From a virus, in IMG/VR virus record IMGVR_UViG_3300005043_000001, positions 1 to 64,000 of that record: a DNA stretch of 64,000 nt; one strand, given 5' to 3'. Position 1 is the first letter of the stretch. The number at the start of each line of letters is the position of its first letter. The position numbers and the translations under genes were made by a program. The notes beneath the pieces were generated by a model that ran no database searches, was not told the origin of the DNA, and saw only the letters and a program-made list of their open reading frames with translations. Positions 30,301-62,978 of the stretch are shown here, piece by piece.

Positions 30301-30660
30301 CTACCTCTGCTTGTAATTGACGCCAAAGGATCGTTCATACTTCCGGCCTTGTGGCGATGTGGTGAAATTCACTTTACCTTCCATGACAATTCCCGCTTGA
30401 TCAAACTCAGGGTCATCCTGATTGAGTATGTCTATCGAAGCCCATACAACAATCTTTTTACTTGTCACATCTAAAGAGACAGGGTTGTCATCTCCTACGC
30501 CATCAAACTTCCACCCTAGTCCAGTAGTTAATACAGTAAGTACAACTGTAGGCAGCTCAATGACCTCTGTATCTTCTAACTGACCTGTTAGGTTCAAAAG
30601 AAAATCGGTATAGTCGCCAGGATCTGGCGTCTCTTCTGCTGTAATTAGATTAGTTGTCAT
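30301..30660 (-). CDS. hypothetical virion-associated protein
   Basis: The 119-residue protein is beta-rich (VVLTVLTTGLGWKFDGVG, SKKIVVWASIDILN) and its start overlaps the stop of the repeat protein gene. Several short proteins of this layout accompany phage fibre genes. No specific function can be given. Confidence 0.6.
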   Translation of the reverse strand: MTTNLITAEETPDPGDYTDFLLNLTGQLEDTEVIELPTVVLTVLTTGLGWKFDGVGDDNPVSLDVTSKKIVVWASIDILNQDDPEFDQAGIVMEGKVNFTTSPQGRKYERSFGVNYKQR

Positions 30661-31931
30661 AAGTCCACTGTCCTAGATTTATTTGAGGTGAAAATGATTT
30701 CTCTTGAACCCGCAGTAGGATATTCAATAATCCTTCCATTAGGTGTTGTAATTTCGTAGTCATCACGCCCTTTCACTTTTGCGTTTCCTGCCTTAACTAC
30801 TCCTGTCACCTCGAAGATGAATCCGGCAAAGGATGTGACTTTTGCATTACCTGCTTTAACCACCCCCGTTGCAAACTTCGAGTTACTTACTGCTGCGTTG
30901 CCTTCAACCTTAGCATTGTTAGCTTTCACTACTCCTATTGCATCATGTTCTACATTAGCATTACCAATGATCTTGGCGTTACCTGCTTTTACAATGCCAT
31001 TTGCAGCTAGGTTAGAATCTGCGTTACCTACAATCTTAGCACTATTTGCTTTAACTGCACCAAAGGCAAACTTACCTTGTCCAGCATTACCAACGATCTT
31101 AGCATTGCCAGCTTTTACCACACCATCTGATTGTCTTTCAACACTCACTAAGGATACGACTTTAGCATTGCCCGCTTTAACTGCACTAACTGTAGTCTGT
31201 ATGATTCGATCAGCAAGGCTAACAACCTTTGCATTGCCCGCCTTAACAACAGCATCATCGCTTCTGACTGTTCGTAGTGCATCACCAGTAATAACTGCAT
31301 TGCCTGCTTTTACTACCCCGTTCGAGACGTGTTGTCCTGCGGTAGATGAGTTACCTACAATTTTAGCATTACCTGCCTTTACTACTCCTGTGCTTGAATG
31401 GTCAATGTTAGATGCACCAACTACTTTCGCATTACCTGCCTTAACCGCTCCTGAGGCGTTAGTGACATTATTGACAGCAGCGTTACCTACTATAGTAGCA
31501 TTACTTGCTTTAACCGCGCCACCAGACTGCCTCTCAACCCCTGCTAAGGATATGACTTTAGCGTTGCCCGCTTTAACTGCACTAGTCGTAGTCTGCACAA
31601 TCCGATCGGCAATGCTGACAACCTTTGCATTGCCTGCCTTAACAACAGCATCGTCACTTCTGACTGTTCGCATCGCATCGCCGGTAATGACTGCATTACC
31701 CGCTTTTACTACGCCACTTGAGTTGTGCTGTCCTGCGGTAGAAGAGTTACCCACGATTTTAGCATTACCGGCCTTAACTGCACCGACAACTTGGAGGATG
31801 GGGATAGCATTACCCAGCACTTTTGCATTGCCTGCTTTTACCACCCCACTAGAGCTGTGAACCACATCGCCCTGTAAAATCGATGGGGTTTTTCCTATTG
31901 CTCTGCTGTTAAATGCACTTGTGTTATTCAT
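30657..31931 (-). CDS. tandem-repeat fibre-like protein (VKAGNAK repeats)
   Basis: The 424-residue protein is built almost wholly from 17 copies of a 20-27 residue unit centred on G[VA]VKAGNAK[VI]xGNA. Copies 2-6 and 8-12 are near-identical blocks, so five units were duplicated together. The regular Val/Ala/Gly-rich pattern suggests a beta-solenoid or triple-stranded fibre shaft. The C-terminal 45 residues (from about GRDDYEITTPNGRI) are non-repetitive and may be the tip. A long antisense frame is only a by-product of the repeats. Confidence 0.8.
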   Translation of the reverse strand: MNNTSAFNSRAIGKTPSILQGDVVHSSSGVVKAGNAKVLGNAIPILQVVGAVKAGNAKIVGNSSTAGQHNSSGVVKAGNAVITGDAMRTVRSDDAVVKAGNAKVVSIADRIVQTTTSAVKAGNAKVISLAGVERQSGGAVKASNATIVGNAAVNNVTNASGAVKAGNAKVVGASNIDHSSTGVVKAGNAKIVGNSSTAGQHVSNGVVKAGNAVITGDALRTVRSDDAVVKAGNAKVVSLADRIIQTTVSAVKAGNAKVVSLVSVERQSDGVVKAGNAKIVGNAGQGKFAFGAVKANSAKIVGNADSNLAANGIVKAGNAKIIGNANVEHDAIGVVKANNAKVEGNAAVSNSKFATGVVKAGNAKVTSFAGFIFEVTGVVKAGNAKVKGRDDYEITTPNGRIIEYPTAGSREIIFTSNKSRTVDL

Positions 31932-34351
31932 TACGCTGGGAACTCCCCAATTACCGCAAGCATGTCAGCTTGAGAAAGGATAGAAGGTATCAATACAATA
32001 TCATATATCAAGCCATTTAGGTCTAGTGAACTTGAAGAAGACAGCGCACCTATGAACACCCCTGTTGTGGTATTGGTATTAACCGCCATAGCTGTTTGAG
32101 TTGAGTTTATCACCCCGGCACTGTCATACATTTTTGTTTCTAATGTGGAGGCATTGAAAGTAACTACCATCGTTGTAATTACATCTTGAGGGAAGAAATC
32201 GCCTGTAGACGTATGCACATCCGATATTGAGCTGTTGCCTTGCATCCTAAGTTCAAAGCCGCTGTTTGTTTTTATCCCCATGGCATTACCAGTGTTAAAG
32301 TAAATACCTTCATTCGCAGCGTTGGATTTTCTCTCAGTTCTTACAATGAATGTCCAGTCTCCACTAGAAGGTATGGCTCCACCTGTGGGAACCTCCAACC
32401 TACCATCGGTATCATTGCCCCTTAGATTTATTGCACCTCCATCTAAGGTTACTCCTCTACTCGCTACAGGGAATGCATGGAAACCATTTCCTGACTGATC
32501 AAGCCAATCCACTGAAGGGGCGTTTACGCTTTGCCCTATACCCTTACGGAACCAAACTATAGGTGATAATGCCAATGTTGGTGAGGCATTGTGCTGCTCT
32601 GTTAGTACACTAGTAAACGTTCCATTCCCTATGCTATTTATTGCATACATTCTAAAGTCGTAGTCAGTGTCCGCTGCTGGCGCTGTAAACGCATGACTTA
32701 CTGTAGCCTGAGATGCTATAGGTATATCCGCTATTTCTACACCAAAGGTTCCCACCCCGGTTTCCCTTACCTGTATAACGTAGCTAGTTACTACAGGGTC
32801 AAAGACCAATGCGTCCCATGTTATTTGAAGCTGTGTTGACCCATCAGCTACTGCAAAGTTTGCAGGGGCTGAAGGTACAATATCTAGCAATGGTGTTTCT
32901 GTTAGTAAGCTTTCATTAGAAAACCCTACCGCAGATCTACCCCTAAGCTCAACCTCATATTCAATACCGTTCGTTAGTCCTGTAAATATATGGGATGTTT
33001 GAACATTTGTTTTTGTTACTACAGAACCATAACTACCCCCACTAGGCTTTATGCGTAACTGATAATCAATGATAGGTTCTGGCTTCTCATCAATGTCTGG
33101 TGTCAGATCCCAAGTTACAGTTAGTTGCTCTTCTTGCTCCGTTATTAAGGGATTCACCATTGCTAAGGGTCGTTGAGCCCAGAAATTTCTATTGCCATAA
33201 CCTACCGCTTCAAGGTAAGCCTCATAGAACTGTAGTCCCCTTTCTCTTTGTCCCGCTGCGTCAGTATGTAGATTTCCTACTCCCGCATAAGTCCAACTAT
33301 TATTAACGGGCTTGTAAACGCACATATGGTTCGCATCAGCCAAAGCCTGCATATCCTCTCTGATCTGATTACCATTAGCTGTTGCTAGTTCTCTAATGCC
33401 TCCTATTATGAAAGGAACCATGTTTAGGCTACTTTGCTTCGCATTAAATGTTATGCCGGTTCCATCCCTTAATGCATCTATAAAGCCTTGTGCTGCTGCT
33501 TGCCATTCACCAGGGTCTAATGTTCCGCTAAGCGTATCTGACTCCCCTTGCTGTAGTACTATAACTTCAATTTCGTTATCTGGGTGAGCAGCAAGAAACT
33601 CATTTATCATTAGTACAGTATAAAGGTACATTGAGCCCGACGGTGTAGCCCACTCTTGTGAACTCTGTGTAAATGCTGTACTACCATGCCCGCAAGGTAG
33701 TATACAAGTTCTCGCGTTTGTGTGCCGGACTCTGCCCCTAGACATAGCTTTTGCAAAAGTTAAACATGGGCCTGCGCTTGTTGGCCGGGTAGTCCCTGTT
33801 ATATCTGTTGAATTTGAGGAAGCGTTGCCATCTGTTGCATGATCTAAAGGCTCTGTAGCTATAACAAACCTATCCATGATATTAGTGTCATCAGCCTCAA
33901 AAGCGGAATGGTCTAACGTATATCTAGCACTCTTCCTGTACTGTAGTATGTTAGCATCCGGCACATCTAGTATAGGGTCATAACCTAACATTCCCGCACT
34001 CTCGTCTTCCCCGTTATGCCCCACAAGGTTAGACTGTCCTGCCATGACCTGTCCTAACATCCCTCCTAAGTTTGAATTGAATATGTACTCATCAAAAGCA
34101 GACATTATGAAAACACCGTTCTCAAAATAGAACCCACTTGCATTATTCTCGTGGAAAGTTTCTATCCATAAGCCTTCAGACGTAATGGTACCTTCAACCA
34201 ATACGCTATAATTCACATCGACTTTATCTGTTATGTAATACCAACCCCTAGAATTAATAGCGGCTGTTTCAGCCCCCACTACCGCAGTAAGCCGGAAGGG
34301 GGCTGACGTATCAGTTGAAGTGTATTCGACCCTCGTTTTTAATCCTGACAT
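31931..34351 (-). CDS. fibre protein with SGNH esterase, FnIII and LamG-like domains
   Basis: The 806-residue protein has an N-terminal adaptor-like region (1-95). An SGNH/sialate O-acetylesterase-like domain follows, with block I GQSN at 105-108, QQGESD near 265 and LHTDAAGQ near 361. Then come two fibronectin type III domains (about 395-590) and a LamG/concanavalin-like domain (about 595-806, WFRKGIGQ...WLDQSGNGFHAF). It probably removes acetyl groups from host surface sugars during adsorption. The residue three before the block V histidine is Gly, where Asp is usual. Confidence 0.82.
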   Translation of the reverse strand: MSGLKTRVEYTSTDTSAPFRLTAVVGAETAAINSRGWYYITDKVDVNYSVLVEGTITSEGLWIETFHENNASGFYFENGVFIMSAFDEYIFNSNLGGMLGQVMAGQSNLVGHNGEDESAGMLGYDPILDVPDANILQYRKSARYTLDHSAFEADDTNIMDRFVIATEPLDHATDGNASSNSTDITGTTRPTSAGPCLTFAKAMSRGRVRHTNARTCILPCGHGSTAFTQSSQEWATPSGSMYLYTVLMINEFLAAHPDNEIEVIVLQQGESDTLSGTLDPGEWQAAAQGFIDALRDGTGITFNAKQSSLNMVPFIIGGIRELATANGNQIREDMQALADANHMCVYKPVNNSWTYAGVGNLHTDAAGQRERGLQFYEAYLEAVGYGNRNFWAQRPLAMVNPLITEQEEQLTVTWDLTPDIDEKPEPIIDYQLRIKPSGGSYGSVVTKTNVQTSHIFTGLTNGIEYEVELRGRSAVGFSNESLLTETPLLDIVPSAPANFAVADGSTQLQITWDALVFDPVVTSYVIQVRETGVGTFGVEIADIPIASQATVSHAFTAPAADTDYDFRMYAINSIGNGTFTSVLTEQHNASPTLALSPIVWFRKGIGQSVNAPSVDWLDQSGNGFHAFPVASRGVTLDGGAINLRGNDTDGRLEVPTGGAIPSSGDWTFIVRTERKSNAANEGIYFNTGNAMGIKTNSGFELRMQGNSSISDVHTSTGDFFPQDVITTMVVTFNASTLETKMYDSAGVINSTQTAMAVNTNTTTGVFIGALSSSSSLDLNGLIYDIVLIPSILSQADMLAVIGEFPA

Positions 34352-35596
34352 TTATACCACCACTACGTTTGTAAATGTATTTGTGTAAGCAGTATAGATG
34401 ACTTTGGCAAACTCACGATGGGCATTAGCGTCAATATAGAAATCACTGGCATCAGTAAGATACCCAGCATCCATTTCTGCAAAAGCGATGTTTCTTAATC
34501 GTGAAGGGGTCGCCGCCAAGATTGCTTCTATCGACGTAGCTTCGGCTCCATTTGTCGTAATGAAGTCTTTAGGCAACCCACAAACTACTACAGGAACATT
34601 AGAGAAGTCCGTTTGCAGAGTGTTACCTGTAAAGGCATCATCCCTAAACTTATCCACCAATGCATCTAGAGCTGCTTCAAACGCTCCGCTCGCTGCTGCG
34701 ACTGAATCATTTATTCCTAAGGAGATAACAATCATTGCAATCTTGTTATATTCATTCTCCGCTAGTGCAGTATTTACAGCATCTTGAGTAGCTATGTACA
34801 TAGACCCAGAGGTTACAGTCCATTCCCCTGTACTAAAACCACTTGCAAGCGTTTTTCCTAAGGGTAACAGTACTGTCTGTCTCCCCCATGCCCGTCTATG
34901 GTAATACTCTCTGCCTAGTGCTGGCCCAAAGCTCACGCTATTAGCCGGGGGGAATAACCCGGCGTTATTAACATGGGGTAAAGGTTCCATTGCAGGCAAA
35001 TACTTATTTGTAACTTCTGCATTTGTATCAGTACCCGCGTGTGCTGCATTAGCTATTAAAGATCCTAAGTTTAGTGTAAGGACACTCGCGTCAACAAAGT
35101 CCAGTACCTCACTCCATCCAAGAGTGGATAAGGACGTTCCATTATTCCCTACCCCATTACCATCTCCACATACAACGATGATGTCTCTACCCTCCTCTTG
35201 GGCATCCGACATTTGTTTTGTCGGTACCGAAGAGTAGATATTTACAGCACCTGTAAAGGTGGGCATAGAGTTATCTGTCTCACTTGTCTCCTCTAACTCA
35301 TTAACTGCTAACAATGTACCTGTAGTAGTAAAAGTAGCAACCACATTTGCCCATATGGCTTTATTCGAGGCTAGTTCTATCATGAAATAGCCTCGTGTCC
35401 CGTCAACTAGTGTATTAGAGGCCAGGTCTAGCGTTAAAGTGAATGGTGAAGCTGTTTGCGGGGAAGTCCCTACAACCCTATTAATTACTTGATTCATAAT
35501 ATCCTCTATCTGTGCAGGGAATGGATGTGTAATTGGTACTGCAACTACACGCGCCCTTCGTGGAAAACCACTTAAGCCAAGCCTAGAGGCACCCAT
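34352..35596 (-). CDS. SGNH-hydrolase-like fibre protein, probably inactive
   Basis: The 414-residue protein aligns by pattern with the esterase domain of the next gene: VVCGDGNGVGNNG near 144 against AGQSNLVGHNG, SLGINDS near 294, and DFYIDANAHREF near 388 against NLHTDAAGQRER. The catalytic serine position holds Gly (GDGN) and the histidine position Ile, although the Asp is kept. It may be a binding-only relative. The genes abut by one base. Confidence 0.72.
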   Translation of the reverse strand: MGASRLGLSGFPRRARVVAVPITHPFPAQIEDIMNQVINRVVGTSPQTASPFTLTLDLASNTLVDGTRGYFMIELASNKAIWANVVATFTTTGTLLAVNELEETSETDNSMPTFTGAVNIYSSVPTKQMSDAQEEGRDIIVVCGDGNGVGNNGTSLSTLGWSEVLDFVDASVLTLNLGSLIANAAHAGTDTNAEVTNKYLPAMEPLPHVNNAGLFPPANSVSFGPALGREYYHRRAWGRQTVLLPLGKTLASGFSTGEWTVTSGSMYIATQDAVNTALAENEYNKIAMIVISLGINDSVAAASGAFEAALDALVDKFRDDAFTGNTLQTDFSNVPVVVCGLPKDFITTNGAEATSIEAILAATPSRLRNIAFAEMDAGYLTDASDFYIDANAHREFAKVIYTAYTNTFTNVVVV

Positions 35597-38500
35597 TACA
35601 CAATCACAAAGTTATCAGTGTTAAGTGGTGCTTCTGTTATTGCATCAAACGTCAACACTTTCGTTGTACCATTATACCCTGTGATCGTTGTTGACTGTTT
35701 AGCAAGAGTCCCTGATACAAATATCAACAAGCTGTCTTTGTAATGGTCGTTAGTTGTCTCAGTTAGGTTTGTAGACATTTGAGTTATGGATAAAGTGCCT
35801 GTAACCGCTGCACCAATCTCAATGCCCTGTGTGGACTGTGCAAGGTTAGTTGCTGCTTCAGTATTACCACTAATCTGAACAATGTCCGCAGATACTTGAT
35901 CACTGGTAGGGTCAAAGTTATTTAACGCTGCAACTTGTACCTTGGTAGAGAACCCCTGCTTATTAATTGTTACAGCCCCGCCAGAGTTATCAACTATTAC
36001 CATGTCCCCTGCAATGTTTACTGTACCCCCTATGCAATTAGCGTTGATTACTAACTCATGTGACTCACCGTTTAAGTTTACAGTATCAACACCTGACTGA
36101 CCTAAATTTTGTAATTCAAGCCCACCCGCCCAGTGATGTATCTCAATATGAGTATTGCCAATAGCAACTCCAAAATCAACGATGGCTGGTGTAGCGTCCG
36201 CAGAGGTGAAGCAATCCCTAAGAGTGTACTTACCTGCGGCTCCTAATGTTAGCACTCCTGATATAGAGCTATTCAAAACTCCTGCTGGCGGCATTGTTAC
36301 ATTCGTTAGCTTACATGTATCAAATACTACTTGAATGCTACCAATAGCCACACCTGAAAGCAGTGCTTCTACAAAGACAGCTCCACCAACATCCTGACCC
36401 CCTAAAGCGATGCTTGCGCCTCCACCTTGGAAACCATATCCTACATACGCTTGGGCTAGTGTAAAGGATGAGAATCTTAAACTAGTTAGCGTCTTTAGTC
36501 CTAGACTCTCTAGTATTGTAGTAGCTGCTGCAATTGTAGAAACATTATTCTCACTTGTACCATCCACATAGTCAATGGTATTAGTGTTAGAGCCATTTGT
36601 GTCAAGCCATACAGACCCATCTTCATAGCCTGCAATACTTTTACGGTTAAGAGCTGCAACTTGAATCACGTTTACTGCTGCGCCTGAAACATCCGTTACA
36701 TTTTCCCAGATACCTCGTATATGCACATCTCCGCCAGTACCACCTACTGAGATAGTACCTCCTGTGCCTTCAAGACTTACATCATCTCCAGCTTCTACAT
36801 TCAAAAGGACAAGCCCGCCTGACCAATCTCTAATGTTTAGGCTACACGCACCAACACCCGCCCCTAAGTCTATAGTGGGTGAGCTTTCCCCTGCGACTAG
36901 TGAATTACAATCCAACAAGTCAAACTCACCTGCTGACCCTAGTGTCATCATAGCAGTAAACCCTGTTCCTCCATTAATTCTACAAGGGGGTAAAGTCACA
37001 GTACCCAGTTCACAATGTTGAAACTGTGGTTTACCCGTTGCTGTAGCAATGCCCGACACTTTAGGCCCAAAGAACCAAGAGTCCGATATGTCTTGTCCCC
37101 CTAATGCTAATGCCCAATTAAATCCTGTCCATACTTCATTATCGTGGGATTCACTAAAGGTTATACTAGACCCATTAGAAACTTGGAATCTATGTAGACC
37201 CATGTTAGTGGCTATGATAATAGCGTCTGCTAGTGTTAGTACTGGGTTATCTGCTGTACCATTTACAAAACTTTCAGTTCCGGCTACACCATTAACAGTA
37301 TCTATCCAGACAGCCCCACCAGAGTATCCTACTGATTGGCTAACCACTGAGTAATCACACAATATTCTATCAGTAGCTAACAAACTGCCATTCGCGCTTT
37401 GGATTCTAAAACGTACCTCTCCTAAATCTCCACCTGTACCTACATGTCCTGTAGTAAGTGAGAATATGTGGTTCTGTACACTTATAGTGTTGGAGCCTAT
37501 CAATGCCCCTACTTGTTCCCATGTTGTTGAGGTAAAGTTCCAAGCGAAGAAGTTCCAATCACTTGCGTTACCCTGCAAGTACCCTATCCATTCAACTGCA
37601 ACAGGAACTCCGTTACCGCCAACGCTGAATATGTAATATACATCTGTGGCACCGGCGTCTTCAATGATGTGGTATATGCCATCTTGTTGGGTGGTGGAAT
37701 CCTCCGTATTAACTTCTGAAGTACCTGTGGTGATAACAAAACCGTTAGGTGAAGGTATGGCTGTAGTAGATACCGCTGCACTACCTGCTGAGAAGTTATT
37801 AGCCTGCGCTTGTGTAGCAGGGAAAGTATCTCCCGTTAGTCCTGTAGTATCAAACTGCAATTCAATGTTGGCTCTTGCCACTTCCCCAATGTTGAAAGAC
37901 TTAGAATCATCTAGTATTGTCACAGCCCCGCCAGAGTTGTCTATGACATTTACATGACCAGATACAACTAGTGTGCCACCTGTGCAACTCGCTGCGAGTA
38001 TTAGACTTTCACAAAAACCTGAGATATTTAAAACATCCGTACCATTGGCTCCTAAATTCTCTACAACTAAGTTTCCTCCAAGCCACCCCCTTAGATAGGT
38101 GTCAGTTGAGCCTGTTGTTAGTCCAAACTGTAATGTTAGTGCTGTACTACTAAAAGAGGAACCACAACTAGCAAAAGTGTATGTTCCCGCTACGAAGGTG
38201 AAGGTGCCATTAATAGTTAAGAGTGTTGCAAGCAACCCCGGTAGTGTAACGTTATCCATACGTCCTTGCAGAAATACAAGGGTAGCTGTGGATGTTCCTA
38301 CACCTGTTAGTATTGCATTAATGAATGAACAGCTCTCTATAGACTGTCCATTAAGATCTACAATATAGCCTATGCCATCAAACTCAAAACTGTCATATGC
38401 TTGGGCAAGTTGTATTGTAGTATTTCTTGAAACCCTGAACCTCTTAACCCCAACAGAAGTAGAAAGCGTTGTAGCTGCTGCAATGGTAGAAACTGGGTTA

Positions 38501-39441
38501 TCTGCAACACCATCCACGAATACCTCAGTATTCGTATTAGCTACACCGGAGTCTAACCAGATTGCCCCACCTGCATAACCTATTGATTGAGCGACTACCG
38601 CATAGCCCATTAAAATTCTATCTATTCGTAATGTGGCTGAAGAAAGCGTAGCACTTTCAAATCTGATCCTTACCTTCCCTTTATCCGCGCCTGCACCCGT
38701 ATTTCTTGCCGTAAGAATGTATGGGAACTCATCATTTGTAGAACCATTCTTACCACTAAACTCTCCTACTACATCCCAACTCGCACCTATCCAGTCATAC
38801 GCATACACAGTAAGGTCATCATTACCTCCTGTTAAATATCCATTTACAATGGCATCAGTAGCAACACCAGCCCCTGTCACATTAAACTCATAGTATAAGT
38901 CTAATGTTCCTGCACTATCTGTATGCTCATGCCTAACGCCGTCAATCGTTTCAGTGTCTGTGAAGAGGTTGCTTGATTGGGCACCTGTTGTTAGGAGGTA
39001 ACCACTGGCAACTGTCGCTATGGACGCACTACCGACCGATAAAGAACCTAGCTGATCCTGTGAGGCGGGAAATGACTCCCCTATTAGCCCTGTTCCGTCA
39101 TACTGTAGTTCTAAATTATCTGCTGCTGTCGAGTCCCCTGATATGGCTACAACATCTACTAGTATATTAGTAGGCTCTGTTGGGATGGTAAAAGAAGCTG
39201 TGACACTTGACGCATGGGTAAATAGTAGGCCTACCAAATCCCCATTCATCTCTGCGGCTGTTAGGTCAACTGTCCACTGTCCATTCCCCTCATGCACCGG
39301 CGTAACATCAGCAATGGCTGTCTGTGCGCCCCCATCTAGAGTGTAGTAGCCTACCGGGGTTCCTGTTGTTACATCTACCCCCAAAGGGGTTATCATGTTA
39401 AAGGGAAAACCTGTGACTGCGGTGTTTTTCTTAAAAGTCAT
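35596..39441 (-). CDS. large fibre protein with triplicated beta-helix module
   Basis: The 1281-residue protein starts with an adaptor-like domain (1-95) and then holds three related modules of about 300-400 residues. Each has a GGAIWLDSGVANTNTEVFVDG-type start followed by DNPVSTIAAATTL and a run of short strands like a right-handed beta-helix. The variants are GYAGGAIWLD, GYSGGAVWID and GYEDGSVWLD. Such modules form shafts or receptor-binding parts in marine phage fibres. The C-terminal 100 residues differ and may cap the trimer. Confidence 0.78.
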   Translation of the reverse strand: MTFKKNTAVTGFPFNMITPLGVDVTTGTPVGYYTLDGGAQTAIADVTPVHEGNGQWTVDLTAAEMNGDLVGLLFTHASSVTASFTIPTEPTNILVDVVAISGDSTAADNLELQYDGTGLIGESFPASQDQLGSLSVGSASIATVASGYLLTTGAQSSNLFTDTETIDGVRHEHTDSAGTLDLYYEFNVTGAGVATDAIVNGYLTGGNDDLTVYAYDWIGASWDVVGEFSGKNGSTNDEFPYILTARNTGAGADKGKVRIRFESATLSSATLRIDRILMGYAVVAQSIGYAGGAIWLDSGVANTNTEVFVDGVADNPVSTIAAATTLSTSVGVKRFRVSRNTTIQLAQAYDSFEFDGIGYIVDLNGQSIESCSFINAILTGVGTSTATLVFLQGRMDNVTLPGLLATLLTINGTFTFVAGTYTFASCGSSFSSTALTLQFGLTTGSTDTYLRGWLGGNLVVENLGANGTDVLNISGFCESLILAASCTGGTLVVSGHVNVIDNSGGAVTILDDSKSFNIGEVARANIELQFDTTGLTGDTFPATQAQANNFSAGSAAVSTTAIPSPNGFVITTGTSEVNTEDSTTQQDGIYHIIEDAGATDVYYIFSVGGNGVPVAVEWIGYLQGNASDWNFFAWNFTSTTWEQVGALIGSNTISVQNHIFSLTTGHVGTGGDLGEVRFRIQSANGSLLATDRILCDYSVVSQSVGYSGGAVWIDTVNGVAGTESFVNGTADNPVLTLADAIIIATNMGLHRFQVSNGSSITFSESHDNEVWTGFNWALALGGQDISDSWFFGPKVSGIATATGKPQFQHCELGTVTLPPCRINGGTGFTAMMTLGSAGEFDLLDCNSLVAGESSPTIDLGAGVGACSLNIRDWSGGLVLLNVEAGDDVSLEGTGGTISVGGTGGDVHIRGIWENVTDVSGAAVNVIQVAALNRKSIAGYEDGSVWLDTNGSNTNTIDYVDGTSENNVSTIAAATTILESLGLKTLTSLRFSSFTLAQAYVGYGFQGGGASIALGGQDVGGAVFVEALLSGVAIGSIQVVFDTCKLTNVTMPPAGVLNSSISGVLTLGAAGKYTLRDCFTSADATPAIVDFGVAIGNTHIEIHHWAGGLELQNLGQSGVDTVNLNGESHELVINANCIGGTVNIAGDMVIVDNSGGAVTINKQGFSTKVQVAALNNFDPTSDQVSADIVQISGNTEAATNLAQSTQGIEIGAAVTGTLSITQMSTNLTETTNDHYKDSLLIFVSGTLAKQSTTITGYNGTTKVLTFDAITEAPLNTDNFVIV

Positions 39442-41334
39442 TTAGTGTATTCCTATTAGTCTATTAGTGTTTTTTGCCCAAGCTGCGCTATAGATCTGTA
39501 CTGGCGGCGGCGTTTGCCAATCAATATCATCATTCAGTGTTAAAGCGGTGTTGGCATCTGCTATTTCACCTGTTGTAAAGTTCCTTTCAGTCTCTATAAA
39601 GAGGTAACGAATGTTAGCCTTCACTCCTCTGTTTGCTGAACCCCTGTTACCTACAACAAAACTGCCTGAGGTCGATGTCATCTCAGCAAGAGCAGAATTT
39701 AGAGAAATACCATTGGCCTGCTGAGTTTCTTTTACATTTCCATAATAGACTTCAACCCTGTCCGCTTGAACAGCTTGGCTGGTGTCAACGTTAATCGTTA
39801 TTAGCTGCTTGGCTGGTGAAGGTAATAACACCTCATACTCTTGTCCTGACGCAGCGTTATTCCATCTTAACTGCATTCCAGAAGTAGTGAAAACTACACC
39901 TAATATACCATTGCCGCTATCTTCACCAAAATGGAATATACGAGAACCAAAGTTATGATAATCAATTACTTCCGCATACAGCATTATGCAGAGCTTTGTA
40001 ACACCATTAAGCTTTGTCGCTATAGTGCCGTTGTCTTTAGCATTAGCACGCTGAGCATATGCAGCACCCGAGGTAGCTGGGTCTGCTGTAAAATTAATGC
40101 CTGTACCTGTAGCGTCACTTATAAATTCTGCTTTATCTGTTTGGTAATTAATTAGTAGGTCGTTAGCTGAGTCGTTACTATCTTCTAAGTGTGTAGTACT
40201 TGTACCTGTACCTATACAAAAGTGTTCTACTACTATATTATTAACAGATGATACAACGTTTGCTGTCATTGCTATAGTGGCTGTTTCTGCCTGTATCGCA
40301 AGAGTCGCTGTTTTAGTAGTAGAGGATGTTGTTTCAGTCCAAGCACCAGATGACGCCCAGTCTCCATTTCCTGTTTGGTTTGCATACTCCGCAGTTATCC
40401 ATGCTGCACCCAGTAGAGACTTTCTGATTCGAGCTTCACAGACATTACCATTTACGAAACGCTCACTTGACGCATCGAAATAAGTACCAATTCTGAAATC
40501 GCCATCAGTCGTAAGTGTTTGACCATTATCAGTGCCTTTACTAACGCCGTCTTGGAAAAACTCAATTGTGCCAGTACCGACATCCGCTTGCATTTTGCTA
40601 GTGGTGTTCGCCGCTGCTTGGGTACCCCCTACAGTTTCATCTCCCGCTCCATTAACCCTGACCTGACCATTCAATTTCATTTGGCAATAGTCAGTACTTG
40701 GGTCGTATCTATTACCAAACAGCCCTTTAGCATTGTTTAGTAGTGTAGCATTATAAAATATTGAGAAGTTGAAATCCCCGCCAGTGACTAAAGCCGCTGT
40801 ACTGGCAAGAGATATTGCATGGGTATTACCAAGACCAGACCACACGTCACCAAAAGGGTGGTTAGTTGATACTGCCGAAGGCGGGGAGGTACCAATAGTC
40901 AGTTGTCCATGGTGACCGTTACCCGTTGAATCGACATACTCACCCGCAGTGCCGTCTCCTGTCTCCCTAAGGTGGAGAACAGCCTCGTAGTCTACCCATA
41001 CTGCATTTCGACCGAACGCCGCAGCTACAGCAGGTTGTGTGGTCTCAGACTCGTGCGTTTCAAAGTAGATCGTTGTTCCTGTTGCTGCTGTAGGGATTCT
41101 TACCCACACAACCGCATTAGCGGAGCCACTGGACACTAAGGTCACAATGTCTAATGGAAGTTGAGTCCCTTTCCCACTATCGGTATATGCTCGAAGATCT
41201 CCGCCACCGTTAAGGATGGCATTGGCTGTCCCGTCTAAGGACACTGCTGGAAAATCCGCAGTCTTGATAACAAGGGGCATTCCCGTATGCGAACCTGTTA
41301 TAGTCGGTAAAGTGTATAAAAAATTGTAAGACAC
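39442..41334 (-). CDS. fibre protein with DUF2341- and LamG-like domains
   Basis: In this 630-residue protein residues 1-105 match the DUF2341 pattern (GMPLVIKTADFPAV, GSANAVVWVRIPT, TTIYFETHE), often found before lectin-like folds. Residues 110-335 form a LamG-type domain (VWVDYEAVLHLRET, DSTGNGHHGQL). A second lectin-like domain follows to about 600. The architecture suggests sugar binding. It is the first of the five fibre-like genes in transcription order. Confidence 0.75.
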   Translation of the reverse strand: MSYNFLYTLPTITGSHTGMPLVIKTADFPAVSLDGTANAILNGGGDLRAYTDSGKGTQLPLDIVTLVSSGSANAVVWVRIPTAATGTTIYFETHESETTQPAVAAAFGRNAVWVDYEAVLHLRETGDGTAGEYVDSTGNGHHGQLTIGTSPPSAVSTNHPFGDVWSGLGNTHAISLASTAALVTGGDFNFSIFYNATLLNNAKGLFGNRYDPSTDYCQMKLNGQVRVNGAGDETVGGTQAAANTTSKMQADVGTGTIEFFQDGVSKGTDNGQTLTTDGDFRIGTYFDASSERFVNGNVCEARIRKSLLGAAWITAEYANQTGNGDWASSGAWTETTSSTTKTATLAIQAETATIAMTANVVSSVNNIVVEHFCIGTGTSTTHLEDSNDSANDLLINYQTDKAEFISDATGTGINFTADPATSGAAYAQRANAKDNGTIATKLNGVTKLCIMLYAEVIDYHNFGSRIFHFGEDSGNGILGVVFTTSGMQLRWNNAASGQEYEVLLPSPAKQLITINVDTSQAVQADRVEVYYGNVKETQQANGISLNSALAEMTSTSGSFVVGNRGSANRGVKANIRYLFIETERNFTTGEIADANTALTLNDDIDWQTPPPVQIYSAAWAKNTNRLIGIH

Positions 41335-54134: not shown

Positions 54135-55055
54135 ATGGCTAAGAAATCATTTGTTAAAAAAGATGTTTACCAAGAAGTTACCAACAAGATCATTGCGAAA
54201 CTCGAAGCTGGAACCGTTCCATGGGTTAAAGAGTGGGACAACCAAGGCAACAATCTTTCAAAACCCCTACCTTACAATTTCGACTCCGGCAACATGTACA
54301 GTGGAATGAATATTTTATCATTGTGGATGAGTGAGGAAGAGAACCAATTTACTTCCAATGCCTGGATGACATTCGCACAAGCCAAGAAGAAAGGCGGCAA
54401 CATAATCAAAGGGCAAAAGGGAACGTCTCTATTCTTTTTTAAGTTTGTCGAGAAGGTTTGCGCGGACACTGGGACAGATAAGTCCTACGCAATGCCTAAG
54501 CCCTTCACAGTGTTTAACCTAGACCAGATTGAAGGTATCGAGTTGCCAACGTGTGAGGAGCAACCACAGCCCCATAATGGGCCAATTAATACTGGCGTGT
54601 TACTCTCTTACATGATCGATCAAGGCATTAAGCTAACAGACGGCAAAAACACTGCTTACTACTCCCCAACTGTTGACCGCATAGGAATGCCACCCCGCGA
54701 ACAGTTCCACAGCGAGAGCGCCTATTTTGGGACTCTGGCGCATGAATGCATACACTCGACTGGACACAAGAAGCGTCTAGACCGATTCAGCAACATAACC
54801 GACATACTTGACACCGTACCAAGCCCTAAGAAAGAATATGCATTTGAGGAATTGATTGCAGAACTAGGCGCGGCTTTCCTTTGTGCTGAAACCGGAATAC
54901 AAAAAGACAATGAACAGACAGCCGCATATATTGGCCACTGGTTAAAGTGTCTTAAGTCCGATAAGAAGTTTATTGCACAAGCCGCAAGCCGTGCATCAAA
55001 GGCGACTAAGTATATAAACGAAGCCGCAGAAATTAAACTAGAAAAGGCCGCATAA
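54135..55055 (+). CDS. ardC: ArdC-type antirestriction protein
   Basis: The 306-residue protein has an N-terminal ArdC single-stranded-DNA-binding domain (YQEVTNKIIAKLEAGTVPWV, KGGNIIKGQKGTSLFFFKF, about 10-130). A C-terminal zincin-like domain has HECIH near 201-205 and the further Glu in EELIAELGAA near 237. ArdC proteins protect incoming DNA from host restriction. As a gene behind a strong early promoter it fits a role just after injection. All visible catalytic residues are present. Confidence 0.9.
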   Translation: MAKKSFVKKDVYQEVTNKIIAKLEAGTVPWVKEWDNQGNNLSKPLPYNFDSGNMYSGMNILSLWMSEEENQFTSNAWMTFAQAKKKGGNIIKGQKGTSLFFFKFVEKVCADTGTDKSYAMPKPFTVFNLDQIEGIELPTCEEQPQPHNGPINTGVLLSYMIDQGIKLTDGKNTAYYSPTVDRIGMPPREQFHSESAYFGTLAHECIHSTGHKKRLDRFSNITDILDTVPSPKKEYAFEELIAELGAAFLCAETGIQKDNEQTAAYIGHWLKCLKSDKKFIAQAASRASKATKYINEAAEIKLEKAA

Positions 55056-60638: not shown

Positions 60639-60889
60639 TGACTTGGTATAGGAAGAAAAGTCCTTACACCGTTTGGGTTCGTGTGTTTCAACCCAAGGCG
60701 GGGGGCGGGGAGTACATAGGGGGCATTTGGCGAGTACCACGAAAGATGGCTAGATCTGGAACTCTCTATGTTATCCACCATTACGAATTGCATCAAGTGT
60801 TTAAGGATGCGGACGGAATTTATATAAGGTTGATAAAACGTGAAACGAAGGAAGAACTTTGGAAGTATAAAGAACGCCCACGTAATTGA
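60638..60889 (+). CDS. hypothetical protein
   Basis: The 83-residue protein starts in a TAATG overlap. It is basic and strand-rich (YTVWVRVFQPKAGGGEYIGG). The function is unknown. Confidence 0.6.
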   Translation: MTWYRKKSPYTVWVRVFQPKAGGGEYIGGIWRVPRKMARSGTLYVIHHYELHQVFKDADGIYIRLIKRETKEELWKYKERPRN

Positions 60890-61148
60890 GCATTTGCTAA
60901 ATGATTACAAGGGTAAAATTGATTTACTGACTTGGCTCATTGACCATGGCAGCCCGAGATACCAATTGATAACAGTTGGTATAGTACTAAAAACAATCCG
61001 CCGTAAAATTAGTAAAGAGGTATTAGGTTATGCAGACCCATTGGAACAAACGAGGAGTCACGTTGTTCGAAGTGCTAGTAGTCATCTTCACATTGTTAAT
61101 AATAACGATAGTAGGCCATTGCGCAAACGAGGGAAGCCTAAGCAATGA
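60840..61148 (+). CDS. hypothetical protein, GTG start, overlaps both neighbours
   Basis: The 102-residue frame starts at GTG 60840 within the previous gene and runs 119 bases into the pilin-like gene. Its centre (AHVIEHLLNDYKGKIDLLTW) looks protein-like and fills a 140-base gap otherwise empty. The C-terminal third overlaps the clearly coding pilin frame and may be non-functional tail sequence. Confidence 0.45.
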   Translation: MKRRKNFGSIKNAHVIEHLLNDYKGKIDLLTWLIDHGSPRYQLITVGIVLKTIRRKISKEVLGYADPLEQTRSHVVRSASSHLHIVNNNDSRPLRKRGKPKQ

Positions 61149-61449
61149 CGCTGTTGATAGCATGGTCTGTACTGGGCGTGGTACGTGCGCACCTATTAAG
61201 GCCATAGCTCTAGACAGCGAGCTTGTGATGGTTGCCGGTTGCCCTGATTTGCAGCTACTTAGCATCCAATTAGAGGTTAATGGCTTCTATGACACCAGCG
61301 TTGTGCTGGAAGGCTGTACAGAGATAGAAGACCCGAGCAAGGTGTTACTATTGCGTGATGATGGTTTGTTCTCACAGGTTAAATACAAGGGCAGGAAGCT
61401 ATACATGCCTTCTGTTCACTTACCAACTGATTACCAGGGTACACCATGA
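61030..61449 (+). CDS. type IV prepilin-like protein
   Basis: The 139-residue protein has a textbook prepilin start: an eight-residue basic leader, Gly9 at the cleavage position, then VTLFEVLVVIFTLLIITIVG with Glu at +5 and a long hydrophobic helix. The canonical sequence is G|FTLxE; here +1 is Val. After the helix comes a polar domain with several cysteines (C near 47, 53, 70, 96) that could form disulphides. A phage-made pilin could enter and disturb host type IV pili, for example to block superinfection; that role is inference. It sits among small membrane proteins. Confidence 0.72.
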   Translation: MQTHWNKRGVTLFEVLVVIFTLLIITIVGHCANEGSLSNDAVDSMVCTGRGTCAPIKAIALDSELVMVAGCPDLQLLSIQLEVNGFYDTSVVLEGCTEIEDPSKVLLLRDDGLFSQVKYKGRKLYMPSVHLPTDYQGTP

Positions 61450-61625
61450 CCCCGGTAATGGTGCTAGTCTCTAAAATTCTGTTAATGATGATTGTAATTT
61501 TAATCATAGGCGGACTTATCTACGAATGGACAGTGCGAATTCTCGACAGCAGAAGAGCAAGAGCAATTAAAAAGTGGGAAGCAGAACGCCACGACCCCAG
61601 CCCAAAGGAGCAAAGAAAAAAATGA
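61446..61625 (+). CDS. 59-residue membrane protein
   Basis: The gene starts in an ATGA overlap with the pilin-like gene and ends in an ATGA overlap with the next. One hydrophobic span (SKILLMMIVILIIGGLIYEW) is followed by a charged cytoplasmic-type tail. It may work with the pilin-like protein. Confidence 0.6.
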   Translation: MTPVMVLVSKILLMMIVILIIGGLIYEWTVRILDSRRARAIKKWEAERHDPSPKEQRKK

Positions 61626-62275
61626 AAGACGTTAGCAGCATTACAGAGATACTAGCAGGACTGAGAGACATTCCAGATGCAACTCTTAATATGAGTCGCC
61701 GAAACTGTCACGTTAAAGGCTTATATAGCATAGTGCTACACAAAGATGAGGATACAGGACAACTAACCCGCATGTTCATGGCAGAGCCCCGCCATACCTT
61801 GCATATGAACCTAAACGTTATGAATAGCATGTCACTAGGCATTCACAGCCACCTTTATGACATTGACTTGATTAGGCTTGTTGGTAACCCTATTAACCTT
61901 ATATACCAAGAGAGCGAAACGGGAATTGTCACTAGGGAATATTCTTTTGAATCCCTAGTGACAGGGGGTAGAGGTGCAAGGTATGAAAATAAGCAGAGCA
62001 TTTTACGTTTGGTGGAATACGACCAATTCCGAATATCCTCCTTAAGCTCTGATATTTTACACACCATCTATGTTCCTGAAAGTCAAAGGGCGTGCTGGAT
62101 TGTAAAGGAGGGGTTAAAGGTTAGTACTACAAACCGATTATTCAACAACATGGAAAACATGGAATGTATTGGGCATGAGACTTTCTTACCTCACCTCTAT
62201 GTAAAAGATAACCCTTCTAATTTTATACGCAGCTTTGTTCGTGAGTTCTTCGATAGCACAAGGAATTTACACTAA
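61622..62275 (+). CDS. hypothetical protein
   Basis: The 217-residue protein starts at ATG 61622 with GGAG upstream; an in-frame ATG 16 codons before lies inside the previous gene. It is soluble, with a repeated N-M-N/S-M-S segment near 65. No family is recognised. Its end overlaps the next start by one base. Confidence 0.66.
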   Translation: MKDVSSITEILAGLRDIPDATLNMSRRNCHVKGLYSIVLHKDEDTGQLTRMFMAEPRHTLHMNLNVMNSMSLGIHSHLYDIDLIRLVGNPINLIYQESETGIVTREYSFESLVTGGRGARYENKQSILRLVEYDQFRISSLSSDILHTIYVPESQRACWIVKEGLKVSTTNRLFNNMENMECIGHETFLPHLYVKDNPSNFIRSFVREFFDSTRNLH

Positions 62276-62469
62276 TGGGACGCCGACAAAACGACGGAAG
62301 TAATGACTGGATTGGTATATTGATTTCAGTTGCCATACTAGGGGTGCTTTGCATAGCAACTGCCCCCGCGTATATAGAGTGCAAAACCAAAGGGGGCCGC
62401 GTTATGCAAAGTCTATTTTCCGTTGAGTGTATAAAAGATGAAAAGATAATTGAATTGGAGTTTGGATGA
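62275..62469 (+). CDS. small single-span membrane protein
   Basis: The 64-residue protein has one hydrophobic span (WIGILISVAILGVLCIATAP) followed by a short domain with two cysteines (ECKTKGGRVMQSLFSVEC) that could form a disulphide outside the membrane. Confidence 0.6.
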   Translation: MGRRQNDGSNDWIGILISVAILGVLCIATAPAYIECKTKGGRVMQSLFSVECIKDEKIIELEFG

Positions 62470-62978
62470 TGGCAACCTTATATGTTTTAGCAATTATTGC
62501 ATGCTCTATTATAGCAACTGCTACTATAGTAACTTATAACATTCTGTATAACCCACCGAAGCCAAAGGTATTCTTCACTTATATAAGGGAAAACGGTGTT
62601 GCAAGGATGGGGGTAACCAATTGCCCAGAACATGCAGAGAGAAATAGAGGGAGAACAAAGCGGTATTATGACGACCTGATTGCAAACCACCCAATGCCGC
62701 CATGCAACCCACCACGAAAACAGGTATCAGCCCCTAAAGTAGTACAAGAGTTAGTTGTTAAACTATCCCTAGATGATAGCGAAATACTAAAGTGGTTAGA
62801 AAGTGAAGAAGGCGCTAAAAGAGTTATAAAGAGTATAATACAAAGCAAGCCCCGAACAGTTGTAGACCATAGTGCGATGATGGAAAAAGCCACTGCCACA
62901 ACTAGTATGCACCAACCTACAGATGTTATGGAATGGCACAAAGAAGCGCTAAAAACCATGGAGAAAAAAGATGGATAG
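62466..62978 (+). CDS. N-terminally anchored membrane protein
   Basis: The 170-residue protein has an N-terminal hydrophobic span (ATLYVLAIIACSIIATATIV) followed by a polar, proline-containing region and helices. It starts in an ATGA overlap with two ATGs in a row. The function is unknown. Confidence 0.62.
   Translation: MMATLYVLAIIACSIIATATIVTYNILYNPPKPKVFFTYIRENGVARMGVTNCPEHAERNRGRTKRYYDDLIANHPMPPCNPPRKQVSAPKVVQELVVKLSLDDSEILKWLESEEGAKRVIKSIIQSKPRTVVDHSAMMEKATATTSMHQPTDVMEWHKEALKTMEKKDG

Follow-up and report, generated by a model that had tools for sequence, protein, structure and literature searches.

The class III, or prepilin, signal is defined by a leader of 6-26 mostly hydrophilic residues, the last of which is Gly, followed by 21 mostly hydrophobic residues with a Glu at position +5 (PMC4471445). 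Several phage proteins that target the host pilus have been described, including D3112 Gp05 (Tip), DMS3 Aqs1, Pf4 pVII and QDWS Gp21, the targets of which have been reviewed as PilB, PilC/PilJ, or the expression of PilA/PilB (PMC11436027). These are functionally the nearest to what we propose here for the phage protein P0001, but, unlike for P0001, a prepilin signal is not described for them in that review.

Phage-borne prepilin signals are already known as a kind, and the idea is not unprecedented, since many virulent phages encode such signals and some of the proteins are annotated 'pilin' or 'type IV pilus subunit'. Small examples with canonical signals include P3_CHA0141c of PAK_P3-like phages (phrog_10597; 59 aa), KVP40.0030 (phrog_13280; 66 aa, annotated via PF00114), ValKK3 ORF231 (phrog_13280; 67 aa), which has been noted as pilin-like (PMC13142089), Delftia phage PhiW-14 gp119 (44 aa), the phrog_11263 proteins of Aeromonas T4-like phages (75-79 aa), a protein of Xanthomonas phage PhiXhv-16 (99 aa, annotated 'type IV pilus subunit') and one of cyanophage ACG-2014f (126 aa, annotated 'pilin'). 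PHROGs holds several prepilin-signal families, one of which is named 'pilin'. Longer proteins of ~210 aa are encoded by F10 (gp11, L268) and JBD68 (gp10, L269), both temperate P. aeruginosa phages; these are GspH/FimT-like and lie within the tail gene block, between the major tail protein gene and the tape-measure gene that they adjoin. In PhiXhv-16 (L270, 1501-1800) the prepilin signal is fused to a C-terminal phrog_902 domain (E = 9e-16, from residue 14), an arrangement that hints at the exchange of anchors on a periplasmic domain common among phages. We found no paper testing any phage prepilin-signal protein, within a literature coverage that is incomplete.

A further group is an IMG/VR family, MKQRGFTLIE...ISWGINGMTESRCIEGYKF...RQILDEFGKGVRC (L277-L331, e.g. 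L277:1501-1632), that consists of 43 distinct small viral proteins on contigs of up to 374 kb and combines a conserved prepilin signal, a drifting helix and an invariant Cys-pair domain; its PHROGs and Pfam matches are confined to the N-terminal signal. The family was gathered with its C-terminus (ISWGINGMTESRCIEGYKF...RQILDEFGKGVRC) as the sole query, and therefore the N-terminus was unselected in this search, although the seeds had earlier been found via the signal. Gly-1 is retained in 42 of the 43 proteins (Arg in the exception) and Glu+5 in 41 (Gln or Asn in the exceptions), and mean column entropy is 0.33 bits over the six signal columns versus 2.12 bits over the next 20 helix columns. 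Given that Gly and Glu are conserved while the helix drifts, at least one phage family keeps a prepilin signal and not a mere helix. This conservation is evidence on the phage prepilin-signal kind, and not on P0001 itself.

The window, the whole stretch of DNA analyzed here, covers the initial 64 kb of a contig of 74,374 bp. Both contig ends carry a 99-bp direct repeat, and the genome is thus closed, with a length of 74,275 bp. Phage genes include those for terminase, portal, tape measure, tail, DNA polymerase A, a primase-like protein and an SNF2-helicase. The phage is a siphovirus related to P. aeruginosa phages KPP23 and RSP, to the terminase of which its own is 66% identical, and KPP23 has been reported as virulent (PMC4031330). 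With terminase, portal, tape measure and polymerase on the same contig, P0001 sits in a phage genome and not in host DNA, and the suggestion of a sequence-only reading that the protein is phage-encoded is therefore borne out by the closed 74.3-kb siphovirus genome. Structural genes occupy the - strand, whereas small early-type genes, P0001 among them, are on the + strand. Among the - strand genes, ~10.7 kb of large-protein genes (window 30657-41334) lie between the portal-side and the remaining head genes, a block that KPP23 does not have at that place; one of its proteins carries SASA esterase, fn3 and LamG domains, and another has a weak DUF2341 match. The features of the P0001 locus are as follows.

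60840-61148, + strand: upstream ORF, GTG start, 102 aa, the last 39 codons of which run through the prepilin signal in a different frame.
61014-61020, + strand: Shine-Dalgarno-like AAAGAGG, 9 nt 5' of the P0001 ATG (from sequence).
61030-61449, + strand: ORF P0001, prepilin-signal protein, ATG start, 139 aa.
61030-61056, + strand: MQTHWNKRG, the P0001 leader peptide, with a predicted cleavage site following Gly9 (from sequence and the class III definition, PMC4471445).
61057-61119, + strand: 21-residue hydrophobic helix VTLFEVLVVIFTLLIITIVGH, Glu+5 codon at 61069-61071 (from sequence and AF2 model).
61120-61446, + strand: 109 residues predicted to be periplasmic, with five Cys at 31, 47, 53, 71 and 96; no relative and no family or fold match found; low-confidence beta-rich model.
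61446-61625, + strand: following gene, for a 59-aa protein with a membrane helix at its N-terminus, overlapping P0001 by 4 bases (ATGA).
61622-62275, + strand: 217-aa soluble protein with a weak match to phrog_8313, overlapping the gene before it by 4 bases.
62275-62469, + strand: 64-aa membrane protein, Cys pair after the helix, no family match.
62466-62978, + strand: 170-aa protein, N-terminal membrane helix.

P0001 carries a complete class III (prepilin) signal. Its N-terminus, MQTHWNKRG/VTLFEVLVVIFTLLIITIVGHCANEGS in the window translation (slash, predicted cleavage site), has a nine-residue leader with K7 and R8 that ends in Gly9 at -1, and continues with Val+1, Thr+2, Leu+3 and Glu14 at +5 in a hydrophobic stretch of 21 residues (10-30); ORF, basic leader, Gly-1, Glu+5 and helix are thus all as the sequence-only reading had described them. 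The motif is unique to P0001 among 640 ORFs of at least 30 aa in the phage contig, and random genomes of the same composition contained 0.01-0.017 motif ORFs of at least 60 aa per genome, with none of at least 100 aa in 360 simulated genomes. The Pfam N_methyl model (PF07963) aligns to residues 6-27 at E = 0.0023 and 17.9 bits (19.9 bits in the genome search), under the curated cut-off of 21.2. In a six-frame search with this single family of the 4.15-Mb bacterial genome bin that contains the phage contig, P0001 was 11th of 13 matches (E = 0.0039), below ten over-cut-off pilins and above the two weakest matches, and its leader is close to those of the binned host's own prepilins, such as the FimU-like NG/VTLVELMVVLA. 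A hydrophilic leader with K/R, Gly-1, 21 hydrophobic residues, Glu+5 and N-in topology are what P0001 shares with type IV pilins and pseudopilins. Unlike these, it scores below the Pfam cut-off, has no pilin domain match and, in a low-confidence model, no sign of an extended alpha-1, and its helix runs directly into a Cys-containing, possibly beta-rich part.

Similar to KVP40.0030, ValKK3 ORF231, P3_CHA0141c, phrog_11263, gp119 and the PhiXhv-16 and ACG-2014f proteins, which are mostly hypothetical genes of virulent phages, P0001 is small, phage-encoded and headed by a class III signal. However, the C-termini of these proteins show no relationship to P0001 and, for the most part, none to one another, and most are shorter (44-126 aa) with a canonical G/FTLIE. 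The MKQRGFTLIE family also parallels P0001 in that its signal and helix lead directly into a small Cys domain, modeled as beta-rich at an AF2 pLDDT of 70, but it does not align to P0001 past the signal. Full-length matches of P0001 to this family or to phrog_13280, 10597, 11263 or 3433 were not found, nor were significant homologues by tblastn in 50,697 phages, in IMG/VR, in GTDB contigs, in 192 related genomes or in 42 phage records that have a related terminase; sub-threshold matches in the related genomes (best E = 0.008, 30% over 73 aa) were set aside as noise. An exact DNA pattern for RGVTLFEV gave no match in IMG/VR. KPP23 and RSP, the nearest relatives, are without such a protein; the prepilin motif is absent from ~380 kb of DNA of phages with related terminases, KPP23 and RSP included, and PF07963 had no match in 42 whole records of such phages. 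IMG/VR contig 3300029867_000007 represents this phage too, with 100% identity across the compared 12.3 kb, and is neutral evidence, because a search of its 58-kb record did not find P0001. P0001 is a case of a real signal on an orphan protein, of a kind known from other phages.

P0001 heads a 2-kb cluster. Of the 15 phage ORFs that have a membrane helix at the N-terminus, 4 lie in this cluster (61030, 61446, 62275 and 62466), and the protein at 62275-62469 (+) recalls other small phage Cys-pair proteins. An ArdC anti-restriction gene lies ~6 kb away; its product (window 54135-55055, +) is ArdC-like and includes a metallopeptidase domain of the zincin-like type (phrog_7245, E = 3e-76).

The phage contig was binned with a 4.15-Mb Oceanospirillales-like genome, the PilD of which is closest (79%) to that of Oleibacter marinus and other Oceanospirillales. 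Co-binning suggests, short of proof, that this genome is that of the phage host. With gene names assigned from family match and gene order, the bin encodes PilA, PilB, PilC and PilD at C20:225-230 kb, with minor pilins at 263-270 kb and T2SS GspE-J at 361-366 kb, as well as two ATPases that resemble PilT/U. Given PilABCD, the minor pilins and GspE-J, a pathway able to process such a substrate is present in the bin. A further bin protein, G000:C19:116021-116077 (L026), QRGMSFISVLVVVF..., has a prepilin-like start with Ser at +5. Using the bin PilA as a query, we obtained matches in 180 phage records, some of which are chance or host contamination. A 44-aa pilin N-terminus gave no matches against phages, probably due to low-complexity masking that removed the query, and a longer host PilA query did recover phage prepilin-signal proteins that the 44-aa query had missed. 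Pilin matches in Acinetobacter 'phage MD-2021a' (L332, CAKLQH020000003.1) were set aside as likely host assembly; in this record ppdD adjoins an O-antigen ligase gene, and it is therefore probably a mislabeled bacterial chromosome.

Our leading proposal, tentative and held at somewhat short of an even chance, is that P0001 is a PilD-processed inner-membrane host-takeover protein that perturbs T4P and/or T2SS assembly. It is supported by the complete signal, of which ~0.01 would be expected by chance per random genome, by the machinery encoded in the bin, by the early-type gene region and membrane-helix cluster, by the likeness of the leader to host prepilins, and by the signals of other phages, including their conservation in the MKQRGFTLIE family. 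It is weakened by the lack of a homologue, the sub-cut-off Pfam score, the two-frame overlap described below, and the absence of a counterpart in KPP23 and RSP.

Alternatively, the prepilin-type signal could serve as a mere membrane anchor, PilD-dependent or uncleaved, for a Cys-containing periplasmic effector unrelated to pili or T2SS, which we regard as possible though rather unlikely. The single-sequence AF2 model of P0001 has a mean pLDDT of 54.8, with helix 12-33 its sole confident part, and this low-confidence model, built without homologues, ends the helix at residue 33 and contains no alpha-1C. The apparent lack of an extended alpha-1 helix, a Gly/Ser-containing break after the membrane helix and the five Cys would all suit an anchored effector, and the PhiXhv-16 fusion of a signal to a phrog_902 domain suggests that small ectodomains can ride on interchangeable anchors. 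However, a plain anchor requires neither Gly-1 nor a charged Glu+5 within the helix, and the MKQRGFTLIE family keeps both while its helix drifts. Two other membrane-associated roles were rejected: P0001 is not a lipoprotein, as His precedes Cys31 (VGHC) and there is no lipobox, nor a spanin or lysis protein, as an endolysin matching KPP23 ORF011 is encoded elsewhere (11.1 kb, - strand).

It is less probable that the signal is a coincidence, with P0001 an ordinary small membrane protein of a phage, anchored by its N-terminus, that has Gly-1 and Glu+5 by chance, or with a mis-called start that leaves the signal untranslated. The orphan status and sub-threshold Pfam score of P0001 are consistent with this, as is the bin protein at C19:116021 mentioned above (QRGMSFISVLVVV), a sub-threshold match that represents a near-miss signal without Glu+5. 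In addition, bases 61030-61148 (119 bases) are open in both P0001 and the upstream ORF, and codon statistics indicate that the coding frame switches within this stretch, where the choice of frame is ambiguous (-0.5 vs -1.7). Nevertheless, the P0001 start is favored by its good Shine-Dalgarno sequence and by an in-frame TAG at 61024, upstream of the ATG, and the P0001 frame is favored within the overlap because of the same Shine-Dalgarno sequence and the unusual composition of the upstream ORF tail, YADPLEQTRSHVVRSASSHLHIVNNNDSRPLRKRGKPKQ. Leader, Gly-1, Thr+2, Leu+3 and Glu+5 all fit, and only 0.01 such ORFs arise per random genome.

That P0001 is a pilin mimic in the strict sense, processed and incorporated in T4P or the T2SS pseudopilus to alter or cap the filament, is distinctly improbable: the full signal with Glu+5, a mature length of 130 aa in the minor-pilin size range and the host T4P/T2SS machinery in the bin speak for it, but no pilin-family match was found outside the signal in Pfam, NCBIfam or PDB, where weak PDB matches were set aside as chance, and the low-confidence model gave no fold match and shows no alpha-1C. 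The sequence-only reading had called P0001 pilin-like, which holds for the signal, with PilD, T4P and T2SS genes present in the associated bin, but not for any resemblance beyond the signal, and its further idea that the protein could be built into pili is unsupported, given the absent fold match and a helix that ends at residue 33 in the low-confidence model. Because the low-confidence model and the Gly/Ser break oppose an extended alpha-1, P0001 would be more likely an interferer than a pilus subunit.

As a host-takeover protein, P0001 would be inserted by its class III signal N-in/C-out in the inner membrane, where the host prepilin peptidase PilD may trim the nine-residue leader. Mature P0001, with Glu+5, could then enter or contact the T4P and/or T2SS assembly site while its putatively oxidizable ectodomain is held at the inner membrane. 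From there it may perturb assembly as a non-productive subunit, by blocking the platform, or by occupying PilD or PilS. Membrane prepilins can reduce pilus output, both by loading PilD and by being sensed by PilS, through which the expression of pilA is lowered (PMC13170266). The likely benefit to the phage would be altered adsorption or superinfection exclusion.

More broadly, lytic phages of pilus-bearing bacteria may repeatedly have acquired genuine prepilin-signal host-membrane effectors that use PilD, T4P or T2SS as target or delivery route, with P0001 an independent, longer member with a unique Cys ectodomain; we consider this conceivable, with some doubt. The phage T4P inhibitors that we found reviewed target ATPases of assembly, further proteins of the machinery or the expression of pilin, and entry through the prepilin pathway would be a different route. 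PilD serves T4P and T2SS alike, and therefore a protein that enters the prepilin pathway might act on twitching, on DNA uptake and on type II secretion at once. Strongly conserved prepilin signals occur in hypothetical genes of many virulent phages, therapy candidates included, and this general pattern is of more interest than P0001 alone.
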